A DNA stretch of 29,758 nt from a virus. Shown here one piece after another: positions 10,513 to 29,758 of this stretch. Positions within the stretch are counted from its first letter, which is position 1. Each line of letters opens with the position of its first letter. The stretch covers positions 1-29,758 of IMG/VR virus record IMGVR_UViG_3300048131_000128; one strand, written 5' to 3'. A program made the translations under genes and the position numbers. The notes below the pieces were generated by a model. That model worked only from the letters and a program-made list of their open reading frames with translations. It was not told the DNA's origin and searched no databases.

Positions 10513-10787
10513 TATTTAGATCTTCTTTCAGCAAATCCACCAAATGCTTCTTTCTTTTCAATGGGTTTATCTTCCATCAAATTCTTTTCAGCCTCTATGC
10601 GTGTAAGAATTTCAAAAGCATCGAATATTGCAAGCTTTTTAGTTGCAGCAGCATTTTTTAATCTATCAGCAGCAAGCTCATCATCGCCGCCTTCAACAAT
10701 TATTTCTTCCTCTGCTACCCGTATAAGTTCGTGTACTGCTTTATACCCAGCTTGTATTATACTCGACTTCAGTTCCTTTGCGTTCAT
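10512..10787 (-). CDS. Small helical protein before TerL, terminase small subunit candidate (91 aa)
   Basis: The protein is almost wholly helical by eye: residues 1-30 (KELKSSIIQAGYKAVHELIR), an acidic turn EEIIVEGGDDE at 27-37, then AADRLKNAAATKKLAIFDAF at 39-58, and a tail KKEAFGGFAERRSK. Placement directly before terL, size and helix content fit a small terminase subunit that recognises DNA and regulates TerL, but no helix-turn-helix can be asserted. The frame overlaps the end of the preceding 199-residue gene by 47 bases. No other ATG suits, and the conserved-looking opening starts here. The stop overlaps the terL ATG. Confidence 0.55.
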   Translation of the reverse strand: MNAKELKSSIIQAGYKAVHELIRVAEEEIIVEGGDDELAADRLKNAAATKKLAIFDAFEILTRIEAEKNLMEDKPIEKKEAFGGFAERRSK

Positions 10788-11340
10788 ATTTAATTGAAAT
10801 TGAATTAAGTGGTACTCTATATAATCTTTCGTTGTCTATAACAAATTCATATTCACTATTTGGTGTAAAACCTATTATATCATCATTGCCTAAACCAAAG
10901 TCTCTTAAATTGCTCCCTAAGTGCTTTAAAACGCCTGTGAGCGGCTCTTCTTTATCTTCTGTAAGATTATTTGTGCTTTTAATTGGTTTTACAAAGCAAA
11001 AACCCGGTGGCGTGTACCATTTACTACCTCTTTTATATAAAAATATTTGGTCACTAAAGCAAAAGTATTTGTCTTCTTTAAAATAGTTACGACTATTTTT
11101 TTCATTACCTCGCATGTCATAATATCTTCTAAATACATTATGATGAATAATTACTTCATCACCTATTTGTAAATTATATTCATCTTTAATAATTGGTGTT
11201 TCAATTATAATACCCAATCTATTTACAAACTTGTGATCTTCTACTGATGTATTTAATATTAACTCTTGACCTTCAACATCTTTTTTATTATTGTATCTAC
11301 CGTTAATTGGTTCAACAATATAAGCATACGTATGCTTCAT
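10741..11340 (-). CDS. Tandem GroES-like double-domain protein, putative co-chaperonin (199 aa)
   Basis: The sequence can be read as two GroES-type barrels. Half one (about 6-103) has IVEPIN, then GQELILNTS at 24-32 (an LIL tripeptide like a GroES mobile loop), GIIIETP at 43-49, and LQIGDEVIIHH at 57-67. Half two (about 115-187) has FVKPIKS, TGVLKHLGS, LGNDDIIGFTP and then EYEFVIDNERLYRVPL, ISIKYE. The last part lines up with YGIDFNGEYLQVI and DVVVI in the phage GroES at 22808-23068. Half two has no hydrophobic loop tripeptide. A role as a second co-chaperonin is inferred from this pattern, as no search was run. It lies between a 72-residue unknown (1-base overlap) and the small-terminase candidate (47-base overlap). 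Confidence 0.5.
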   Translation of the reverse strand: MKHTYAYIVEPINGRYNNKKDVEGQELILNTSVEDHKFVNRLGIIIETPIIKDEYNLQIGDEVIIHHNVFRRYYDMRGNEKNSRNYFKEDKYFCFSDQIFLYKRGSKWYTPPGFCFVKPIKSTNNLTEDKEEPLTGVLKHLGSNLRDFGLGNDDIIGFTPNSEYEFVIDNERLYRVPLNSISIKYERKGTEVEYNTSWV

Positions 11341-11712: not shown

Positions 11713-11745
11713 TTACATGTTAGTTACAATCTTCAATTGCTCCAT
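11713..11745 (-). pseudogene. Ten-codon ORF remnant at the LamG stop codon
   Basis: The TAA of the 1107-residue gene overlaps an ATG (TAATG) that opens MEQLKIVTNM and stops. A matching start, MEDLKIYIKK, follows the other LamG gene at 27722. The shared opening suggests a leftover of a small gene that travels with these adhesins. Too short to call as a gene on its own. Confidence 0.25.
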
Positions 11746-14700
11746 TATTTTATTGCTAAATAGATGTAGGTTTCTCCACTACCATTCCATCCTGAATTAC
11801 TTGTTGATAATTGAAACCCATCGCTTAAAAAACTAAATCTACCTGCATATGTAGTGTCAGCATTAGATAAGTTAGGAAACAATACAATATCTTTTCCTCT
11901 TGAAGTATCGTATATCATCCAATTATCTGATAAGGATGTCGGTTTAAGTATTACAAATCTTGGAGCAAATTCTGTTGTAACTGATAATGTCCCTCCATTC
12001 CCTGTATAACTCCCTACCTTCTGATAACCTGTAACAGAGTGGAAGCAGTAGGCGATGTAAGTTGAACCACTTGAATTAGTTGATGTATCATTTCCTACAT
12101 TTACAACTGTACTTGTAGCTGGACTTGGAAATACACCAGAAGAAGTACCGCCTGCCGAAGTTGTGTTTAGTTTCATATAATTTGGTGGCGTATTTGTTGT
12201 ATCATACAATACAAACCAATCCTCTGTAGCACTTGTTCTTTTTACTATAACCAGTTCAGGTAACGAGCTTAATCCGTGTCCAAAACTTGCGTTAGAACCT
12301 GTCCCTGTATACTTCACAATACTAAACCCTGCCTCTGCATTTACACTTACTACACTATCTATAGTACCCTCTGTGTTTATCTGTGGTAAGTTGTCATCGT
12401 GGTCTCCTGCCTTGAAAACCCAAGCTACGTAATCCGTTGAACTGTCATTTACATAAGAACCTGACCCTGCTGAATTTACCGTAAATCCGTCTGTATATAT
12501 GTTGGTTATAGTATCAGTACTAGTAGTGTTTTCAGCACCTGTTGTACTAGAAAATAATCTGCCATACAAGCCTTCAGAGCCTCTTACAGAATCAACTAAA
12601 ACGTGGTGATGAGATGCATCCCTTGACTTAACCCACACAAGGTCGGGCTTAAAATCTGTATCAATACTTTGAGTTCCGCCATTACCTGTATAAGTAACAA
12701 CATCAAAGCTATTCTCTACAGTTGGAGTTGTAGTATCAGGGTCTGCTGCTATAGCTAGGTAGATGTAGGTTTCATTATTACCATTAAATCCAACATCATT
12801 ATTTTTTATCTGAAAACCATTACTTAAAAAATCTAAAACATTTATACCTGCTGATTCTGCATTACTTAAGTTTGCAAATAATCTTTGTGTTGCAGGGTTT
12901 GTTGTATCTCTCTTGTTATCCACTATATTCCAATGAGCCGTAGTTGAGGATGATTTAATCATTACAAATGCAGGTTCAAATCCTGTCTCTACAATAGTTC
13001 CATTAGTAGAGCCATTCCCTGTATAGCTACCGATTTTTTGGTAGTTGTCTACGCTGTGGAAGCAGTAGGCGATGTAGTCACGACTTGTATTAGTCCAATT
13101 TGTTGTAAAAGTAGTTGGATTTACAGTAAAAGATAAATCAGTGTTTTGAGCTCTTGTTAAATTTAATGCAAGTGAGTTTCCTGATGTTAAATCTTTTGTC
13201 CAAACATACCAATTTGATGCATCATCAACGTGCTTAATAATAATCATTTCAGGAGTAGAAGATAATCCGTGTCCCGCAGTTTGAGTAACATTAAAAATTG
13301 ATGTAAAATTCACAATACTAAACCCTGCATCCTGATTAGCCTTTACAGTACTTTCTATAGTTCCGTCGTTATTAGTAGCTGCTGCACCTTCTCCTGCATT
13401 GAAACACCAAGCTGCGTAGTCATCTCCTGACTTATTTGCATTAGCCTCTCCTGAATTTCCTTCATCAACCGCAAAACCATTACTTGAAACTGAATCAACG
13501 TGACCAAATACTGAATCTGCAGAACCTAAATAAGACGCATCAGAGTATTGAGGATGATTTATACCTGCGACAGTATTTTGCAAAATATGATTAGAACCTG
13601 TTGAGCGGTTTTTTATCCAAATAAAATCAGGAGAAAAATTTGTAGCCTCTTGGTAAATTACGTTAGAGGCAGTGCCATCGTAAGCGTAGGTTACGTTAGT
13701 TGCAGTACCATCGTATAATTGTTGCTCATCTCTTGCATCTCCTTCAAACTTATAGTGTGCTTGTAAACCACTTATAGATATTGTAGAAGAAGCTGTTTCG
13801 GCATATAAGGTGTTTACGTCTGATTGTGAAAGCTCTGTATTGTACACTCTTACTTGGTCTATTAAACCATCCGTCTTATGGGTTGAACCATAAGTCCCTA
13901 TAGTGGGAATGTAAGAACTTCTTGTTGTTGAACCTGCGTTTGTATTTGTGCCTGTTAATACTCCGTTTAAATACACTTTAACATCTCCATTATGCTTTAT
14001 TGTTCCAACAACGTGATTCCACTCACCAACGTTAGCTGCAACTGAAGAGAGAGCACTAATTTGAGTACCTGTACCTCCACCAAAACTTTGATCCATTTTA
14101 GGAAAACCATTAGTCCAAAGAGTTAATCTATAATCAATAAATGAGGAATCTGCAGGGTCAGACGTGGATGTACTACATAATATTGGGTTTCTGCTTGACA
14201 AAGTGTTTGGTTTTATCCAAGCGGATATTGAAAATTCTCCTGTTGTATTAACATCAAAAGCGGAGCTATTTGGTAAAGTAATTTTACTACTACTCCCATT
14301 AAATATAGCAGCACTTCCAAACTTCCCACTTGCTCCTCCTGTATCATTTGCATTACCATCTAATTGGTATAAAGCAACACCTGAATTATCATTAAAAATA
14401 TCCGTAGTAGATATAGTAGTAGAAGCGTGAGTTTCTCCATATAGAGTAGTTACTTCGGTAGAAGATAATGCTTTGTCGAAGATTCTTAATTGGTCTATTT
14501 TACCATTCCAATTATTAGTCACACCTGTAGTTCTCATTCTCGCACCTATATATTGCGATGGGAATGAGTAGCTGTTTGCTGTAAATGAAGTTGTATCCTT
14601 TAAAACACCATTAACATATAATTTAGATTCCGTTGTAGAACAAGTCCAAACTATATTATACCAAGCATTAATCCCTACTCCGTGTGTGGCTGAATTTATG

Positions 14701-15068
14701 TAAAGGTCTAGACCTGTAGATGATGCATTTCTGTTTAATAATTCTAAATTATTATTAGTGTCAAAACCTATACTTAAAAACGGTGTTCCATTTGATTGGT
14801 CTGATTGACCAAAAATTATACTAACCGTATTATTGGTGTTTCTATAAACCCAAGAGGATATGCTAAAAGATGTTCCGCTCAAAGGAATGACATTCGTAGA
14901 AATACTACTACTACTACCATTAAATACAGCACCTCTATTTATATACCCTCCTATACGTTGAGTACCTCCGTTACCTGTATAGAGTACAGTGTTAAAGTTT
15001 TCTGAAGCAAAAGTATTTGCTCCGCCAGTTGCCGCTGGTCCTGCGTTTATTAATTTCTTACCAAGCAT
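11745..15068 (-). CDS. LamG-repeat tail fibre / adhesin (1107 aa)
   Basis: This is a large, probably receptor-binding fibre protein. Residues 45-210 and 245-425 are two LamG/concanavalin-like lectin domains; each starts with AVFNGSSSSI or AIFNGSSSKI and ends in KIDQLRIFDKALSS or LIDQVRVYNTELSQ, the usual closing strand. An 11-residue micro-repeat (YDGTATNVTYA, YDGTASNVIY) follows at 452-472. Then come two tandem copies of a three-part unit (480-774 and 785-1107): a PDFIWIKNR-type part ending AAWCF or AWVFKAG, a part opening GTIxSxVxxNxxAGFSIV and ending YIAYCFHSV, and a part opening QKxGSYTGNG and ending ETYIYLAI. Residues 27-37 (TVLYTGNGGTQ) are a stub of the same unit. No chaperone or peptidase domain is seen. 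Its start overlaps the stop of the 161-residue gene (TAATG). Confidence 0.85.
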   Translation of the reverse strand: MLGKKLINAGPAATGGANTFASENFNTVLYTGNGGTQRIGGYINRGAVFNGSSSSISTNVIPLSGTSFSISSWVYRNTNNTVSIIFGQSDQSNGTPFLSIGFDTNNNLELLNRNASSTGLDLYINSATHGVGINAWYNIVWTCSTTESKLYVNGVLKDTTSFTANSYSFPSQYIGARMRTTGVTNNWNGKIDQLRIFDKALSSTEVTTLYGETHASTTISTTDIFNDNSGVALYQLDGNANDTGGASGKFGSAAIFNGSSSKITLPNSSAFDVNTTGEFSISAWIKPNTLSSRNPILCSTSTSDPADSSFIDYRLTLWTNGFPKMDQSFGGGTGTQISALSSVAANVGEWNHVVGTIKHNGDVKVYLNGVLTGTNTNAGSTTRSSYIPTIGTYGSTHKTDGLIDQVRVYNTELSQSDVNTLYAETASSTISISGLQAHYKFEGDARDEQQLYDGTATNVTYAYDGTASNVIYQEATNFSPDFIWIKNRSTGSNHILQNTVAGINHPQYSDASYLGSADSVFGHVDSVSSNGFAVDEGNSGEANANKSGDDYAAWCFNAGEGAAATNNDGTIESTVKANQDAGFSIVNFTSIFNVTQTAGHGLSSTPEMIIIKHVDDASNWYVWTKDLTSGNSLALNLTRAQNTDLSFTVNPTTFTTNWTNTSRDYIAYCFHSVDNYQKIGSYTGNGSTNGTIVETGFEPAFVMIKSSSTTAHWNIVDNKRDTTNPATQRLFANLSNAESAGINVLDFLSNGFQIKNNDVGFNGNNETYIYLAIAADPDTTTPTVENSFDVVTYTGNGGTQSIDTDFKPDLVWVKSRDASHHHVLVDSVRGSEGLYGRLFSSTTGAENTTSTDTITNIYTDGFTVNSAGSGSYVNDSSTDYVAWVFKAGDHDDNLPQINTEGTIDSVVSVNAEAGFSIVKYTGTGSNASFGHGLSSLPELVIVKRTSATEDWFVLYDTTNTPPNYMKLNTTSAGGTSSGVFPSPATSTVVNVGNDTSTNSSGSTYIAYCFHSVTGYQKVGSYTGNGGTLSVTTEFAPRFVILKPTSLSDNWMIYDTSRGKDIVLFPNLSNADTTYAGRFSFLSDGFQLSTSNSGWNGSGETYIYLAIK
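11748..13631 (-). repeat. Two tandem ~300-residue adhesin units within the 1107-aa gene
   Basis: The unit covers residues 480-774 (13631-12747) and again 785-1107 (12716-11748). A 21-base stretch encoding YIAYCFH is identical at 12039-12059 and 13056-13076, while most of the rest has diverged. A third copy of the unit lies in the partial LamG gene at the right end of the window. Confidence 0.75.
13650..13715 (-). repeat. 33-base tandem micro-repeat, two copies
   Basis: Two successive 11-residue units (YDGTATNVTYA, YDGTASNVIYQ) link the LamG domains to the following units in the 1107-residue fibre. The same motif occurs three times in the other LamG gene. It reads as an expandable hinge. Confidence 0.7.
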
Positions 15069-22371: not shown

Positions 22372-22811
22372 TATCGTTCTTTATCTTTGTGCATATTATC
22401 TATAGCAGCATTAAATACTTTATCACTATAAGTTTTGTTTTTATTAAACACACTTCTTTGTGTTACAGGTAAATCTTCTTGTCCTAAAAGAATTCTATAA
22501 ATTCTTGAAATAAGATGTTTACACTGTGTTGAAACTTTATATATATTGTATTTAATTGTAGTATGATTTCTTTTTGTATATATATCTATCCATCCATTTT
22601 TACGTAATCGCTCCCAGCGATGTTTGTCCCATGAATGTATATATGTACCCTTAATGTAATCATTACGTGTAAAACGGCCAAGGCAATCAAAATGTATTAA
22701 TAATTCAAGATCAGCGTCGGTTAGCTTATATGTTTTACAAGCCCATTTTCTAACTAATCTATAATATTTAAAAAGACCAATGCGTCTAATATCATCAGAC
22801 TCTAATCTCAT
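22371..22811 (-). CDS. Winged-helix-like protein (146 aa)
   Basis: A basic protein with a pattern suggestive of a winged helix: LTDADLELLIHFDCLGRFTR at 36-55, then WERLRKNGWIDIYTKRNHTT at 66-85 (a helix followed by a hairpin 'wing'), then a YNIYKVSTQCKHLISRIYRI helix at 88-107. The last part (EDLPVTQRSVFNKNKTYSDK, then VFNAAIDNMHKDKER) is helical and basic. This arrangement is similar to MarR-like folds and is one I have seen in marine phage proteins. A DNA-binding role in late transcription is plausible but inferred. It is coupled to groES by a 4-base overlap. Confidence 0.55.
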   Translation of the reverse strand: MRLESDDIRRIGLFKYYRLVRKWACKTYKLTDADLELLIHFDCLGRFTRNDYIKGTYIHSWDKHRWERLRKNGWIDIYTKRNHTTIKYNIYKVSTQCKHLISRIYRILLGQEDLPVTQRSVFNKNKTYSDKVFNAAIDNMHKDKER

Positions 22812-23068
22812 AATATAACTACAACGTCCTGTTCTTTTATAACCTGTAAGTATTCACCATTAAAATCTATGCCGTACCCAGCATGCCGGTCATAATAAAT
22901 GTTATCGCCTGAGGTAATTCCTTCAACGTAATTACCAACAGAACGCACTTCAGCTTTTCTATATCGTATATCATCCTGATGTTTTTCTGTAAGAATTAAA
23001 CCTGATTCATTTGGTTTAACTTCTTCCTTAATTGATTTAATTATAATAAATTTATTTACAGCTTGCAT
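22808..23068 (-). CDS. groES: Phage co-chaperonin GroES (86 aa)
   Basis: This is the lid of the chaperonin chamber. The barrel signature is present: FIIIKSIK at the start, a mobile loop at about 19-33 with the LIL tripeptide (24-26) that normally docks to the GroEL apical domain, VRSVGN at 41-46, SGDNIYY at 53-59 and YLQVIKEQDVVVIL at the end. At 86 residues it is shorter than the 97-residue E. coli protein, mainly because the roof hairpin (after VGN) is cut down to a few residues. Its ATG overlaps the groEL stop by one base, so the two are likely translated together, and in the order groEL then groES. Confidence 0.85.
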   Translation of the reverse strand: MQAVNKFIIIKSIKEEVKPNESGLILTEKHQDDIRYRKAEVRSVGNYVEGITSGDNIYYDRHAGYGIDFNGEYLQVIKEQDVVVIL

Positions 23069-24621
23069 TATGATTCTCTTACGTTAGAAATTATACAATC
23101 TGCAGACATAATAGTTGTTGCTACTGATACCGCATTTTTTAAAGCGGTCTTTGTAACTAAAACAGGATCAATTATACCTTCTTTTACTAAATTAGTACCT
23201 TCTCCTGTGATAACATTAATTCCCCAACCCTTTTTCATATAAGGACCGTATTTTATACCTGCGTTATCTAATATTTTTTTATATGGAGCTTTAATAGCTG
23301 TAAATAATATTTTATATCCTATATTATCATTGCTTGCTATATCATCAGCTGCATTATGTAATGCAACACCAGCTCCAGGTACAATACCTTCTTTTAATGC
23401 TGCTTTAACAGCATAGATAGCATCTTCAACTCTATCTTTCTTTTCTTTCAGTTCAATTTTAGAGTTTGCACCTACATATAACATTCCAACTCCTCCTGAA
23501 AGCATTGCTTTACGCTGCTCTAGCTTTTTAAGTAAATAAGGATTCTTTTCTTCTTTAAGCTGCTTATTAATAACATCTATTCTATCTTTAACTTCATCAG
23601 TTAATTCAGATATAGTTATAACAGTGTTATTATCGTCCGTAACGGACTTTTGAGCTTCGCCTAGTATTGATTCATTAATTAAATCTAAATCGTCCCCTAA
23701 CTCTTCTGAAATGACTGTAGCACCTGTTAGTGCAGCTAAATCATCTAACATATCTCTACGTAAATTAGAAAAACCAGGCGGGTCAATAACATTTACTTTA
23801 ATGTTACCTTTAACCTTATTCATTATAAGCGCTGATTGAACTTGCTGTGAAACGTTGCCTATAATTAATATTGATCTTTTATTTTTAATAGCAAATTCTA
23901 ATACCGCTTGTATTTTTCTAATAGTTGAAATTTCTGAATCAACTAATAATATTAGCGGTTTTTCAAGTTCTGCTTTATTTTTTTCTTTATCAGTAATTAA
24001 ATGTTGTGATTTTAAACCACTATCAAACTGAACACCATCTATAATTTCTATAAACGTTTCATCAGTATCAGACTCTTCCATAAGGACCACGCCTCCTTCA
24101 CCAACTTTAGTATATGCATCTGCAATTAATTTTCCTAACTTTTTATCGTTATTAGTTGATATATTAGCAACGTGCTCTAACATTGCATCTTTAACAGGTG
24201 TTGAAGAGCTTTCTAAATAATTAATTACTTTTTTTGTAGCTTCTAGTATTTGTTCTTTAACAAGACGCAAATCTTTAGCTTTGCTTTTTTCAAACTCTTT
24301 TAAAATGGAGTGTGCGAGGACAGTACTAGTTGTAGTACCATCACCCGCTTCCTTCACTGTTTTTTGTGCTGCCTCTTTAACGAGGGTCGCGCCAATGTTT
24401 TCTACTGGGTCCATCAGCACCACACTATTCGCAACAGTCACTCCGTCTTTTGTTACTATAGGTTTTCCTAGTGCGTCTTCATATATAACACACTTACCCG
24501 ATGCCCCTAAAGTTGACGAGACTGCTTCGGCGAGTTTTTCAACTCCAGCCATAATTTTACTCTGAGCAGTATTGCCAAAGTTAAGTTCTTTAACAATCTC
24601 GCTTGGTTGATTAAATTCCAT
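23068..24621 (-). CDS. groEL: Phage chaperonin GroEL (517 aa)
   Basis: An ATP-driven folding chamber, shorter than the 548-residue E. coli protein. Equatorial signatures are intact: TLGASGK at 37-43, TKDGVTVA with D59, GDGTTT with D94, and VEDAIYAVKAALKEG with D400. These correspond to E. coli D52, D87 and D398, so ATPase activity is expected. The apical domain (about 195-375) is recognisable but many substrate-binding hydrophobics differ. The E. coli inter-ring residues R452, E461, S463 and V464 align with K448, K457, G459 and P460. The protein ends at ISNVRES without a GGM tail. It is followed by groES with a 1-base overlap and preceded by a 96-residue unknown. Host GroEL captured by mistake is unlikely given phage neighbours on both sides. 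Confidence 0.92.
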   Translation of the reverse strand: MEFNQPSEIVKELNFGNTAQSKIMAGVEKLAEAVSSTLGASGKCVIYEDALGKPIVTKDGVTVANSVVLMDPVENIGATLVKEAAQKTVKEAGDGTTTSTVLAHSILKEFEKSKAKDLRLVKEQILEATKKVINYLESSSTPVKDAMLEHVANISTNNDKKLGKLIADAYTKVGEGGVVLMEESDTDETFIEIIDGVQFDSGLKSQHLITDKEKNKAELEKPLILLVDSEISTIRKIQAVLEFAIKNKRSILIIGNVSQQVQSALIMNKVKGNIKVNVIDPPGFSNLRRDMLDDLAALTGATVISEELGDDLDLINESILGEAQKSVTDDNNTVITISELTDEVKDRIDVINKQLKEEKNPYLLKKLEQRKAMLSGGVGMLYVGANSKIELKEKKDRVEDAIYAVKAALKEGIVPGAGVALHNAADDIASNDNIGYKILFTAIKAPYKKILDNAGIKYGPYMKKGWGINVITGEGTNLVKEGIIDPVLVTKTALKNAVSVATTIMSADCIISNVRES

Positions 24622-27725: not shown

Positions 27726-29758
27726 TTATGCTATTGCTAAATAGATAAATGTTCCATTATTAGTGTTTAGATTTACTGATGAACCTGATGGTATTGTAAA
27801 ACCATTTGAAGTGAATGTTACTCCATATACACCGTTTGTAAATTCAGCACCACTTGAATGCGGTTCTAAAAATTTAGCAGTATTAAATCCTCCATCACCC
27901 CTTATACTATCAACAATCAACCAACTTCCTCCGAATGAAGCTCCTGCTGTTGCTCCTTTTATTAACACAAATCTTGGTTGAAATCCTACATCACTAACTG
28001 TAACACTTCCGCTTGTCCCCGTATAACTCCCTATCTTCTGATAACCATCTACTGAATGGAAGCAATATGCGATGTAGTTGCCTGAAGAACTGTTTACATT
28101 TGTATCTGAAGAAACAGTAAATTTATCGCTTACTGGCGAAGTGTTATTCCAAAAATTATAAGTTTGTGCTTGGGAAGATGTATTTAAATATAGATAATCA
28201 GTGTTTCCTAATGTTTCTGAATATACTGTCCAGTTTTTTGATGAACCGCCTACAACATTTAAATTTTTAATAATTATTAGTTGCGGTGCTGTTGAAAGTC
28301 CATGCCCTACAGTAGCCCCCGCTGTACTATTACCTGTATATTTTACAATACTAAAACCTGCATCCTGATTAGCAGAAACAGATGACGTAATGGTACCATC
28401 AGTGTTTGATACTGCCGTTCCCCCTGCTTTCCAGTTCCAAGCTACGTATGTTTGACCTGATGCATTAGTTGCCCCATTATCTCCTGTAGTAAAACCATTT
28501 GAATTAAAAGAGCTTACAGCGTTTGTTTTAGTAGACTCCGCATTTGTCCTGTTTGAATTTATTTCTTTTTGAACCCCTCTTACACTATCAAATATCGCGT
28601 GATTTTCTGTAGCGCTTCTTCTTTTTATCCAAACAAAATCGGGTTGGAATGAAGTTCCTACAAAACTTACATTAGTAGGTGTTCCGTCATAGCCGTAGGT
28701 TACATTTGTTGCTGTTCCGTTGTATACAGGGTGTTCAGCAGGATCTGAATATGTTATTGATGTTGCAGTACCATTGTAGTTTCCTGTTTCATCTGTTACA
28801 TCACCATCTAATTTATAATGAGCAGAAAGGTTAGCACTAGGCGCATTCGTTTCTGACACTAATGCTTCTACATCTGATGCTGATAAGGCAGATGAATAAA
28901 ATCTTACTTGGTCTATTTTGCCATCTATTCCGCTACTACCATTACCTCCTATATTAATAGGTTCTGTACCGCCTTGATTAATAGCATTTGTGCGAGTCAT
29001 TGTTTTGTTAAGAGAGCCATCTAAATAAAATTTAGCTTCTGTACCTGACCGAGTATATGTCATATGATACCATTGGCCAGCTGTGACTGTCCCTCCAGCG
29101 GAAGATTGTAAATAACTCGTTGTACCATCTCTTTCATAAAAATCAATACCACCTGAGCTTAATGTTCTAAATAAAAATACAACTCCTGGAGAGGCTCCCC
29201 ATCTACCAATAATTTGTTTATTTTGTCCAAGAACGTTAAGATACATCCGCCAGGAAATTGTCCAATTTTCAGTAGAAAAATCTATTGGCGTTGTGTTGGT
29301 AGAAGGAATTGATATTACACTACTACTTCCATTAAACACCGCACTCTGTCCATCATCTATTGCTCCACTTCCATATCTTCCGCTATCATTAGCATTACCC
29401 TCAAGCTCATAAAGTGCAATACCACTACTATCATTAAATATATCTGTTGTAGACTTTGTAGCCGATGCTGCTGTTTCCCCGTATAAGGTTGTTACTTCAT
29501 TTGATGATACGGCTTTGTCAAAGAATCTTACTTGGTCAATAACACCATTTAATATCGCAGTCGTAGATGTAAAAGAACCAATTTCAAAATTATTTGAATT
29601 AGTCATTGTTGGAGCAGACGTTATACCTGTCCCTGCTGAACCATTAACGTATATTTGTGCGTTTCCGCTTGAATCTAAAGTTCCTACAACGTGATACCAA
29701 ACACCTACTGATGCAGTAACCCCTGATGTGGCTTGTTGGTTATATGTGCTATTTTGTC
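27726..29758 (-). CDS. LamG-repeat adhesin, 5' part outside window
   Basis: The first internal Met is at 29606, but the same frame stays open to the window edge and reads VGVWYHVVGTLDSSGNAQIY and VNGSAGTGITSAP before it. That is the middle of a LamG domain whose closing strand (VIDQVRFFDKAVSS) follows, so the true start lies beyond 29758. About 676 residues are visible. A second LamG domain follows (about 85-245 from that Met), then a micro-repeat with three YNGTATNVTY-type units, and one copy of the three-part unit also found twice in the 1107-residue gene: FQPDFVWIKRR, NQDAGFSIVKYTG ... YIAYCFHSV, and QKIGSYTG ... FIYLAIA at the end. It is a paralogue of that fibre and presumably an adhesin. 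Confidence 0.85.
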   Translation of the reverse strand, partial: QNSTYNQQATSGVTASVGVWYHVVGTLDSSGNAQIYVNGSAGTGITSAPTMTNSNNFEIGSFTSTTAILNGVIDQVRFFDKAVSSNEVTTLYGETAASATKSTTDIFNDSSGIALYELEGNANDSGRYGSGAIDDGQSAVFNGSSSVISIPSTNTTPIDFSTENWTISWRMYLNVLGQNKQIIGRWGASPGVVFLFRTLSSGGIDFYERDGTTSYLQSSAGGTVTAGQWYHMTYTRSGTEAKFYLDGSLNKTMTRTNAINQGGTEPINIGGNGSSGIDGKIDQVRFYSSALSASDVEALVSETNAPSANLSAHYKLDGDVTDETGNYNGTATSITYSDPAEHPVYNGTATNVTYGYDGTPTNVSFVGTSFQPDFVWIKRRSATENHAIFDSVRGVQKEINSNRTNAESTKTNAVSSFNSNGFTTGDNGATNASGQTYVAWNWKAGGTAVSNTDGTITSSVSANQDAGFSIVKYTGNSTAGATVGHGLSTAPQLIIIKNLNVVGGSSKNWTVYSETLGNTDYLYLNTSSQAQTYNFWNNTSPVSDKFTVSSDTNVNSSSGNYIAYCFHSVDGYQKIGSYTGTSGSVTVSDVGFQPRFVLIKGATAGASFGGSWLIVDSIRGDGGFNTAKFLEPHSSGAEFTNGVYGVTFTSNGFTIPSGSSVNLNTNNGTFIYLAIA
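28662..28778 (-). repeat. Three degenerate 10- to 11-residue micro-repeats
   Basis: Three units (YNGTATSITY, YNGTATNVTY, YDGTPTNVSF) lie between the LamG domains and the following unit. The first two are separated by eight residues (SDPAEHPV), and the last two are contiguous. The same motif occurs twice at 13650-13715. Confidence 0.6.

Follow-up and report, generated by a model that had tools for sequence, protein, structure and literature searches.

Single-ring and double-ring chaperonins

Single-ring chaperonins are already known from phages OBP, AR9 and EL (the last in ATP), from mitochondrial Hsp60 (mtHsp60) and from the E. coli GroEL mutant SR1 (R452E/E461A/S463A/V464A). The OBP chaperonin came out of purification exclusively as a single ring (PMC5934643), and that of EL forms double rings without ATP and single rings in ATP (PMC7185714). 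So far, the single-ring chaperonins described from phages, those of OBP and AR9, are remote and lidless, and most of the argument over whether GroEL-GroES needs two rings has drawn on engineered mutants and mtHsp60. E. coli GroEL carrying E461K is deposited as a 14-chain structure (2eu1), in which the contact is rearranged to E434 (PMC2741606). On the side of the lid, in a single-ring GroEL system to which wild-type GroES binds too tightly to cycle, GroES carrying I25L or I25F appears to work and to inhibit the GroEL ATPase less (PMC5575113).

The groEL gene and its phage

The DNA analysed here, called the window, is a 29.8-kb virus record (IMG/VR IMGVR_UViG_3300048131_000128). Its groEL gene at 23068-24621 (-), recognised by ORF, Pfam, PHROG and fold match to GroEL structures, encodes a phage group I chaperonin of 517 aa, the window GroEL. 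The protein is a full-length Cpn60: Pfam Cpn60_TCP1 (PF00118) covers aa 30-513 (1.1e-53), PHROG assigns it to phrog_5725, chaperonin GroEL, and its AlphaFold model (pLDDT 86) matches GroEL structures at E 1e-47 through the equatorial, intermediate and apical domains. It aligns with E. coli K-12 GroEL over its whole length at ~39-40% identity. The ORF is a real, intact group I chaperonin gene.

The window terminase is 62% identical to that of a 61-kb podovirus from Manatee Spring and ~46% identical to those of Elemovirus phages, and its other matches are in phages of Cellulophaga, Tenacibaculum and Maribacter. From these matches, the host is most likely a bacterium of Bacteroidota. The window also encodes two large structural or fibre-like proteins, at 11745-15068 (-) and 27726-29606 (-), which share a stretch of ~600 aa at 41% identity. 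The fibre-like protein of 1107 aa holds a second copy of the C-terminal module, ~40% identical, and the repeats resemble those of lectin-type proteins (LamG-like, by eye).

In the GroEL tree, the window clade forms one branch (100/99), with Maribacter phage Panino and elemoB just outside it, and the GroEL of Cellulophaga phage Calle_2 branches elsewhere than these two; long branches lead to several of the phage GroELs, so their exact placement is unsure. The GroELs of Vibrio phage 2.275.O, SJC03, a 735-kb phage and a gut phage branch among bacterial GroELs and keep both the ring-ring contacts and the tail, which rules out that loss of the contacts is inherent to phage GroEL.

Ring-ring contact sites

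An earlier note on this DNA had proposed a single-ring chaperonin from a hand alignment of the four positions changed in SR1. Alignment to E. coli K-12 GroEL, and then among 215 sequences, bears out the hand placement of R452, E461 and S463 on K448, K457 and G459. V464 alone is uncertain: the small alignment pairs it with P460, but the 215-sequence alignment leaves it opposite a gap, because the window segment is ~6 residues shorter than that of E. coli, and P460 is one possible match. The note had further argued that the R452-E461 salt bridge would become two lysines that repel. Both lysines are present in the window GroEL, but the pair is not conserved in the clade, where the residues at 452 and 461 vary freely, and Lys-Lys repulsion as a conserved feature is thus ruled out. 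Nor would the pair be sufficient by itself, because E461K GroEL and human mtHsp60 still stack; this makes four SR1 positions of one protein a weak basis for judging ring number. On the alignments, what the clade conserves is the loss of the interface, not the Lys-Lys pair.

To compare the clade with bacteria, 119 distinct clade GroELs (relatives from IMG/VR) were set against 81 bacterial GroELs (GTDB genomes, E. coli included), using as contact list A109, E434, E461-R452, S463 and V464 (PMC2741606) and K105 (PMC7174398). Of the six canonical contacts (105, 109, 452, 461, 463 and 464), 0-4 are kept in 119/119 clade GroELs and 5-6 in 81/81 bacterial ones, so that the two distributions do not overlap. 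In bacteria the positions are nearly fixed, with K/R at 105, A/S at 109 and R/K at 452 in 81/81 each, and E/D at 461 and V/I/L at 464 in 80/81 each, whereas the 119 clade sequences have nearly any residue there. Position 434 is the exception, being variable among bacterial GroELs too.

Site rates from IQ-TREE place positions 105, 109, 452, 461 and 463 at the 96-98th percentile in the clade and at the 30-54th in bacteria. These contact-site rates were matched by 0/50,000 rate-matched draws and by 0/100,000 draws from polar control positions, P values that serve as guides and are not exact, since clade members are related sequences and independence is overstated. The median rate of the bottom-face segments was 1.83 in the clade, against 0.22 for the remaining equatorial domain; in bacteria the two medians were 0.51 and 0.49. 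At the codon level, dN/dS is 0.25 on the bottom face and 0.06-0.11 elsewhere in clade GroEL. The value of 0.25 rules out positive selection and is one of relaxed constraint inside a folded protein. Charge pairing is lost as well: opposite charges at 452/461 occur in 18/119 clade GroELs, where shuffling gives an expected 17.7, versus 80/81 bacterial ones, and no coupling of charge was seen when it was sought in the clade at 105/434 and 434/461. A net positive bottom face was ruled out as a clade trait, the mean being -1.0 in the clade and -1.3 in bacteria; the window GroEL itself has +2.

A shortened bottom face

The segments that carry the contacts have also been cut back. Segment 420-440, around E434, has 13-15 aa in all clade members versus 19-23 in bacteria, and in the window GroEL the E434 site (aa 426-434; 23320-23346 (-)) is, by segment length, 7 residues shorter than in E. 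coli. Segment 456-482, which holds the end of helix P and helix Q, has 21-23 aa in 111/119 clade GroELs versus 25-28 in bacteria. Its counterpart in the window, the site of R452/E461/S463/V464 and of helix Q (aa 446-466, with K448, K457, G459 and P460; 23224-23286 (-)), lacks helix Q as judged from alignments and model. Segment 96-115, the end of helix D, has 17-19 aa in 85/119 clade GroELs and exactly 20 in all bacteria. In the window this K105/A109 site (aa 108-116; 24274-24300 (-)) is shortened and hypervariable by alignments, rates and model. The AlphaFold model of the window GroEL predicts that helix P stops at residue 453 and helix D at 113, with no helix Q. The absence of the GGM tail was read correctly in the earlier note: translation of the C-terminus (23071-23091 (-)) gives a chain ending ...IISNVRES, and tails in the clade run to 7-14 residues from E. 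coli position 520 onward. In the GroELs of the crAss-like phages phi14:2 (a Cellulophaga phage) and cr108_1, annotated as shorter proteins of ~490 aa, the ring-ring segments are more reduced still and the helix P-Q region is nearly gone.

The conserved core

The ATPase residues D59, D94 and D400, earlier said to be kept, do correspond to E. coli D52, D87 and D398; their codons lie at 24445-24447 (-), 24340-24342 (-) and 23422-23424 (-), and each aspartate is invariant in 119/119 clade GroELs. Median clade rates are very slow for the within-ring beta-sheet (0.07) and the ATP pocket (0.03). Given these slow sites beside fast contact sites, ring formation and ATP use look selected, and ring stacking does not. 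The intra-subunit bridges D155-R395 and E409-R501, taken as controls, are kept in 119/119 clade GroELs. Among the allosteric bridges, D83-K327 is mostly charge-swapped (K/R at 83 in 100/119, D/E at 327 in 76/119; K90 and a partner Asp in the window), and the within-ring bridges E386-R197 and E257-R268 are lost in the clade, so that the clade has diverged beyond the ring-ring face as well.

The substrate/GroES groove is conserved within the clade, at a median rate of 0.16. At two groove positions the clade has changed: E. coli L234 (window aa 238) is Gln in 119/119 and Leu/Val/Ile/Met in bacteria, and E. coli Y203 (window aa 207) is His in 100/119 and Tyr in bacteria. L234Q and Y203H would amount to a fixed change in how clients or the lid are recognised.

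The GroES lid and a second GroES-like gene

Downstream lies groES (86 aa; 22808-23068 (-)), whose start overlaps the groEL stop (TAATG) and whose product scores 34.1 bits with Pfam Cpn10 (cut-off 21.1). GroES was found in 123/123 clade loci, directly downstream of groEL in 118. In an alignment of 124 clade and 75 bacterial GroES, the mobile loop SGLILT (22988-23005 (-)) places its Leu at E. coli GroES I25, and positions 25 and 27 of the loop stay hydrophobic in the clade. Position 25 is Leu in 106, Phe in 16 and Ile in 2 of the 124 clade proteins (Leu/Phe 122/124); the 75 bacterial proteins have Ile in 64, Leu in 10 and Phe in 1 (Leu/Phe 11/75). That L25 is unique to the clade is ruled out by those 10/75 bacterial GroES, and some of the bacteria with Leu have an intact ring-ring interface. 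The clade's I25L/F matches the GroES forms reported to work with single-ring GroEL, a match that is striking but not specific.

Beside the terminase, at 10741-11340 (-), is a gene for a 199-aa protein with a predicted tandem GroES fold, Cpn20-like (phrog_13932, co-chaperonin GroES; model), which has homologues in 73 clade or related loci. The predicted structure finds its best match, over the full length, in chain 7ekq_R (TM 0.57-0.59), the Cpn20 subunit of a Clp complex, and the N-terminal half bears an ELILNT loop resembling the GroES mobile loop. We hypothesise that this protein may serve as a second kind of lid.

Ring number and alternative explanations

From the sequence and the single-chain model, we infer that the window GroEL is a GroES-capped group I chaperonin without the conserved equatorial contact surface, and that it is probably a heptameric single ring, or else forms rings that stack weakly or transiently. 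We hold this reading with good though not full confidence. The earlier proposal, too, was of one ring or of a cycle that passes through single rings; it remains the best reading, now on a clade-wide basis that is stronger than the reasons then given. It is carried by the unconstrained contact sites, the loss of charge coupling, the shortened bottom-face segments, the predicted absence of helix Q, the kept core and GroES I25L/F. In the mechanism we propose, seven subunits would form one ring, which ATP and GroES would close. With no trans ring to send the eject signal, the lid would leave because of a weaker GroES-GroEL fit, owing to I25L/F. During infection, such a system would fold the phage's proteins, and its rings would not pair with those of host GroEL.

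Counting against a single ring is phage EL, whose contacts are equally foreign and which nevertheless assembles double rings when ATP is absent (PMC7185714). Rings of the clade might likewise pair stably by way of another interface, peculiar to the lineage, for example with 1:1 in-register contacts as in EL, the old contacts having drifted once they were replaced. That EL does stack through other contacts (PMC7185714) and that E461K GroEL shifts its contacts (PMC2741606) lend this some weight, as does the conservation of some residues near the contact sites within the clade, with Ile at E. coli 460 and often Tyr at 462. A new stacking interface, however, predicts a conserved bottom face, and the bottom face is instead hypervariable between close relatives, which counts against replacement. 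It is also shortened, with no compensating insertion like helix N2 of EL, and the helix-Q deletion is shared with OBP, whose purified chaperonin is exclusively single-ring (PMC5934643). We consider such an interface unlikely. Less probable still is that the protein acts as a holdase or decoy and not as a folding machine, for example by keeping proteins from aggregating with no closed chamber, or by combining with subunits of the host GroEL. The groove changes L234Q (119/119) and Y203H (100/119) would suit that role, and phage EL prevents aggregation without encapsulation (PMC7185714), but the invariant ATPase aspartates, the slow-evolving groove, the presence of GroES at every one of the 123 loci with its hydrophobic loop kept, and the dN/dS of 0.06-0.11 outside the bottom face all count against it.

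Beyond the preferred reading of a GroES-capped chaperonin with a single or weakly stacking ring, we tentatively raise a fuller one, which is possible but which we would not yet bet on: that this whole marine Bacteroidota phage clade has a naturally obligate single-ring, lid-dependent GroEL served by two kinds of lid. One would be a canonical Cpn10 that I25L/F has tuned to come off in the absence of a trans ring, the other a Cpn20-like tandem protein that may enter mixed lids as in chloroplasts. In the literature searched, no phage clade was found to unite a GroEL-like sequence and a GroES of its own with loss of the stacking surface; the virioplankton survey of Marine et al. 2017 lay outside that search, and a prior mention is possible. 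A natural GroES-coupled clade of >100 sequences, whose stacking surface is relaxed and whose lid has changed to match, would let evolution, besides mutation, test the two-ring question. Compact folding cages, perhaps ones that do not mix with host GroEL, would be a further gain.

Comparison with known chaperonins

With E. coli GroEL/GroES and SR1, the window system shares the group I fold, the ATPase aspartates and a cognate GroES, and all four positions mutated in SR1 are altered in the window GroEL also. It differs in being ~39% identical, in its shortened contact segments and in the lack of helix Q and the GGM tail. SR1 traps wild-type GroES (PMC5575113), whereas the window GroES has Leu at I25. 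Human mtHsp60-Hsp10 is likewise lid-dependent, leaves the R452-E461 bridge unused and is active as single rings (PMC7174398). mtHsp60 keeps S464 and a Lys-Glu contact, however, and stacks in ATP (PMC7174398); the window GroEL is without these contacts, and in sequence it is no closer to mtHsp60 than other GroELs are.

Among phage chaperonins, OBP gp246 and AR9 gp228, which have been seen as single heptameric rings, also lack the GGM tail. OBP lacks the helix-Q segment, as does the window GroEL, in a low-identity alignment where the OBP gaps are approximate. OBP and AR9 are remote homologues that need no co-chaperonin (PMC9598537), whereas the window protein is GroEL-like throughout and has its own GroES. 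EL gp146 shares a shortened helix D and a loop in place of helix Q (PMC7185714). EL makes 1:1 contacts by means of a lengthened helix N and an extra, inserted helix N2 (PMC7185714). An insertion of this type was sought in the 420-440 segment of the window clade and not found; aligned to EL, as the earlier note had proposed, the clade shows a deletion there, at low identity and with approximate EL gaps. EL did not bind E. coli GroES, and the window GroEL has a groES of its own. Also alike are the GroELs of the Bacteroidota phages Elemovirus, Panino and Calle_2, in which the contact sites are degenerate and the tail is missing as in the window, although they are only ~36-40% identical to the window GroEL. 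The Elemovirus annotations already list both GroES genes, one paired with groEL and the second by the terminase, the same arrangement as in the window.
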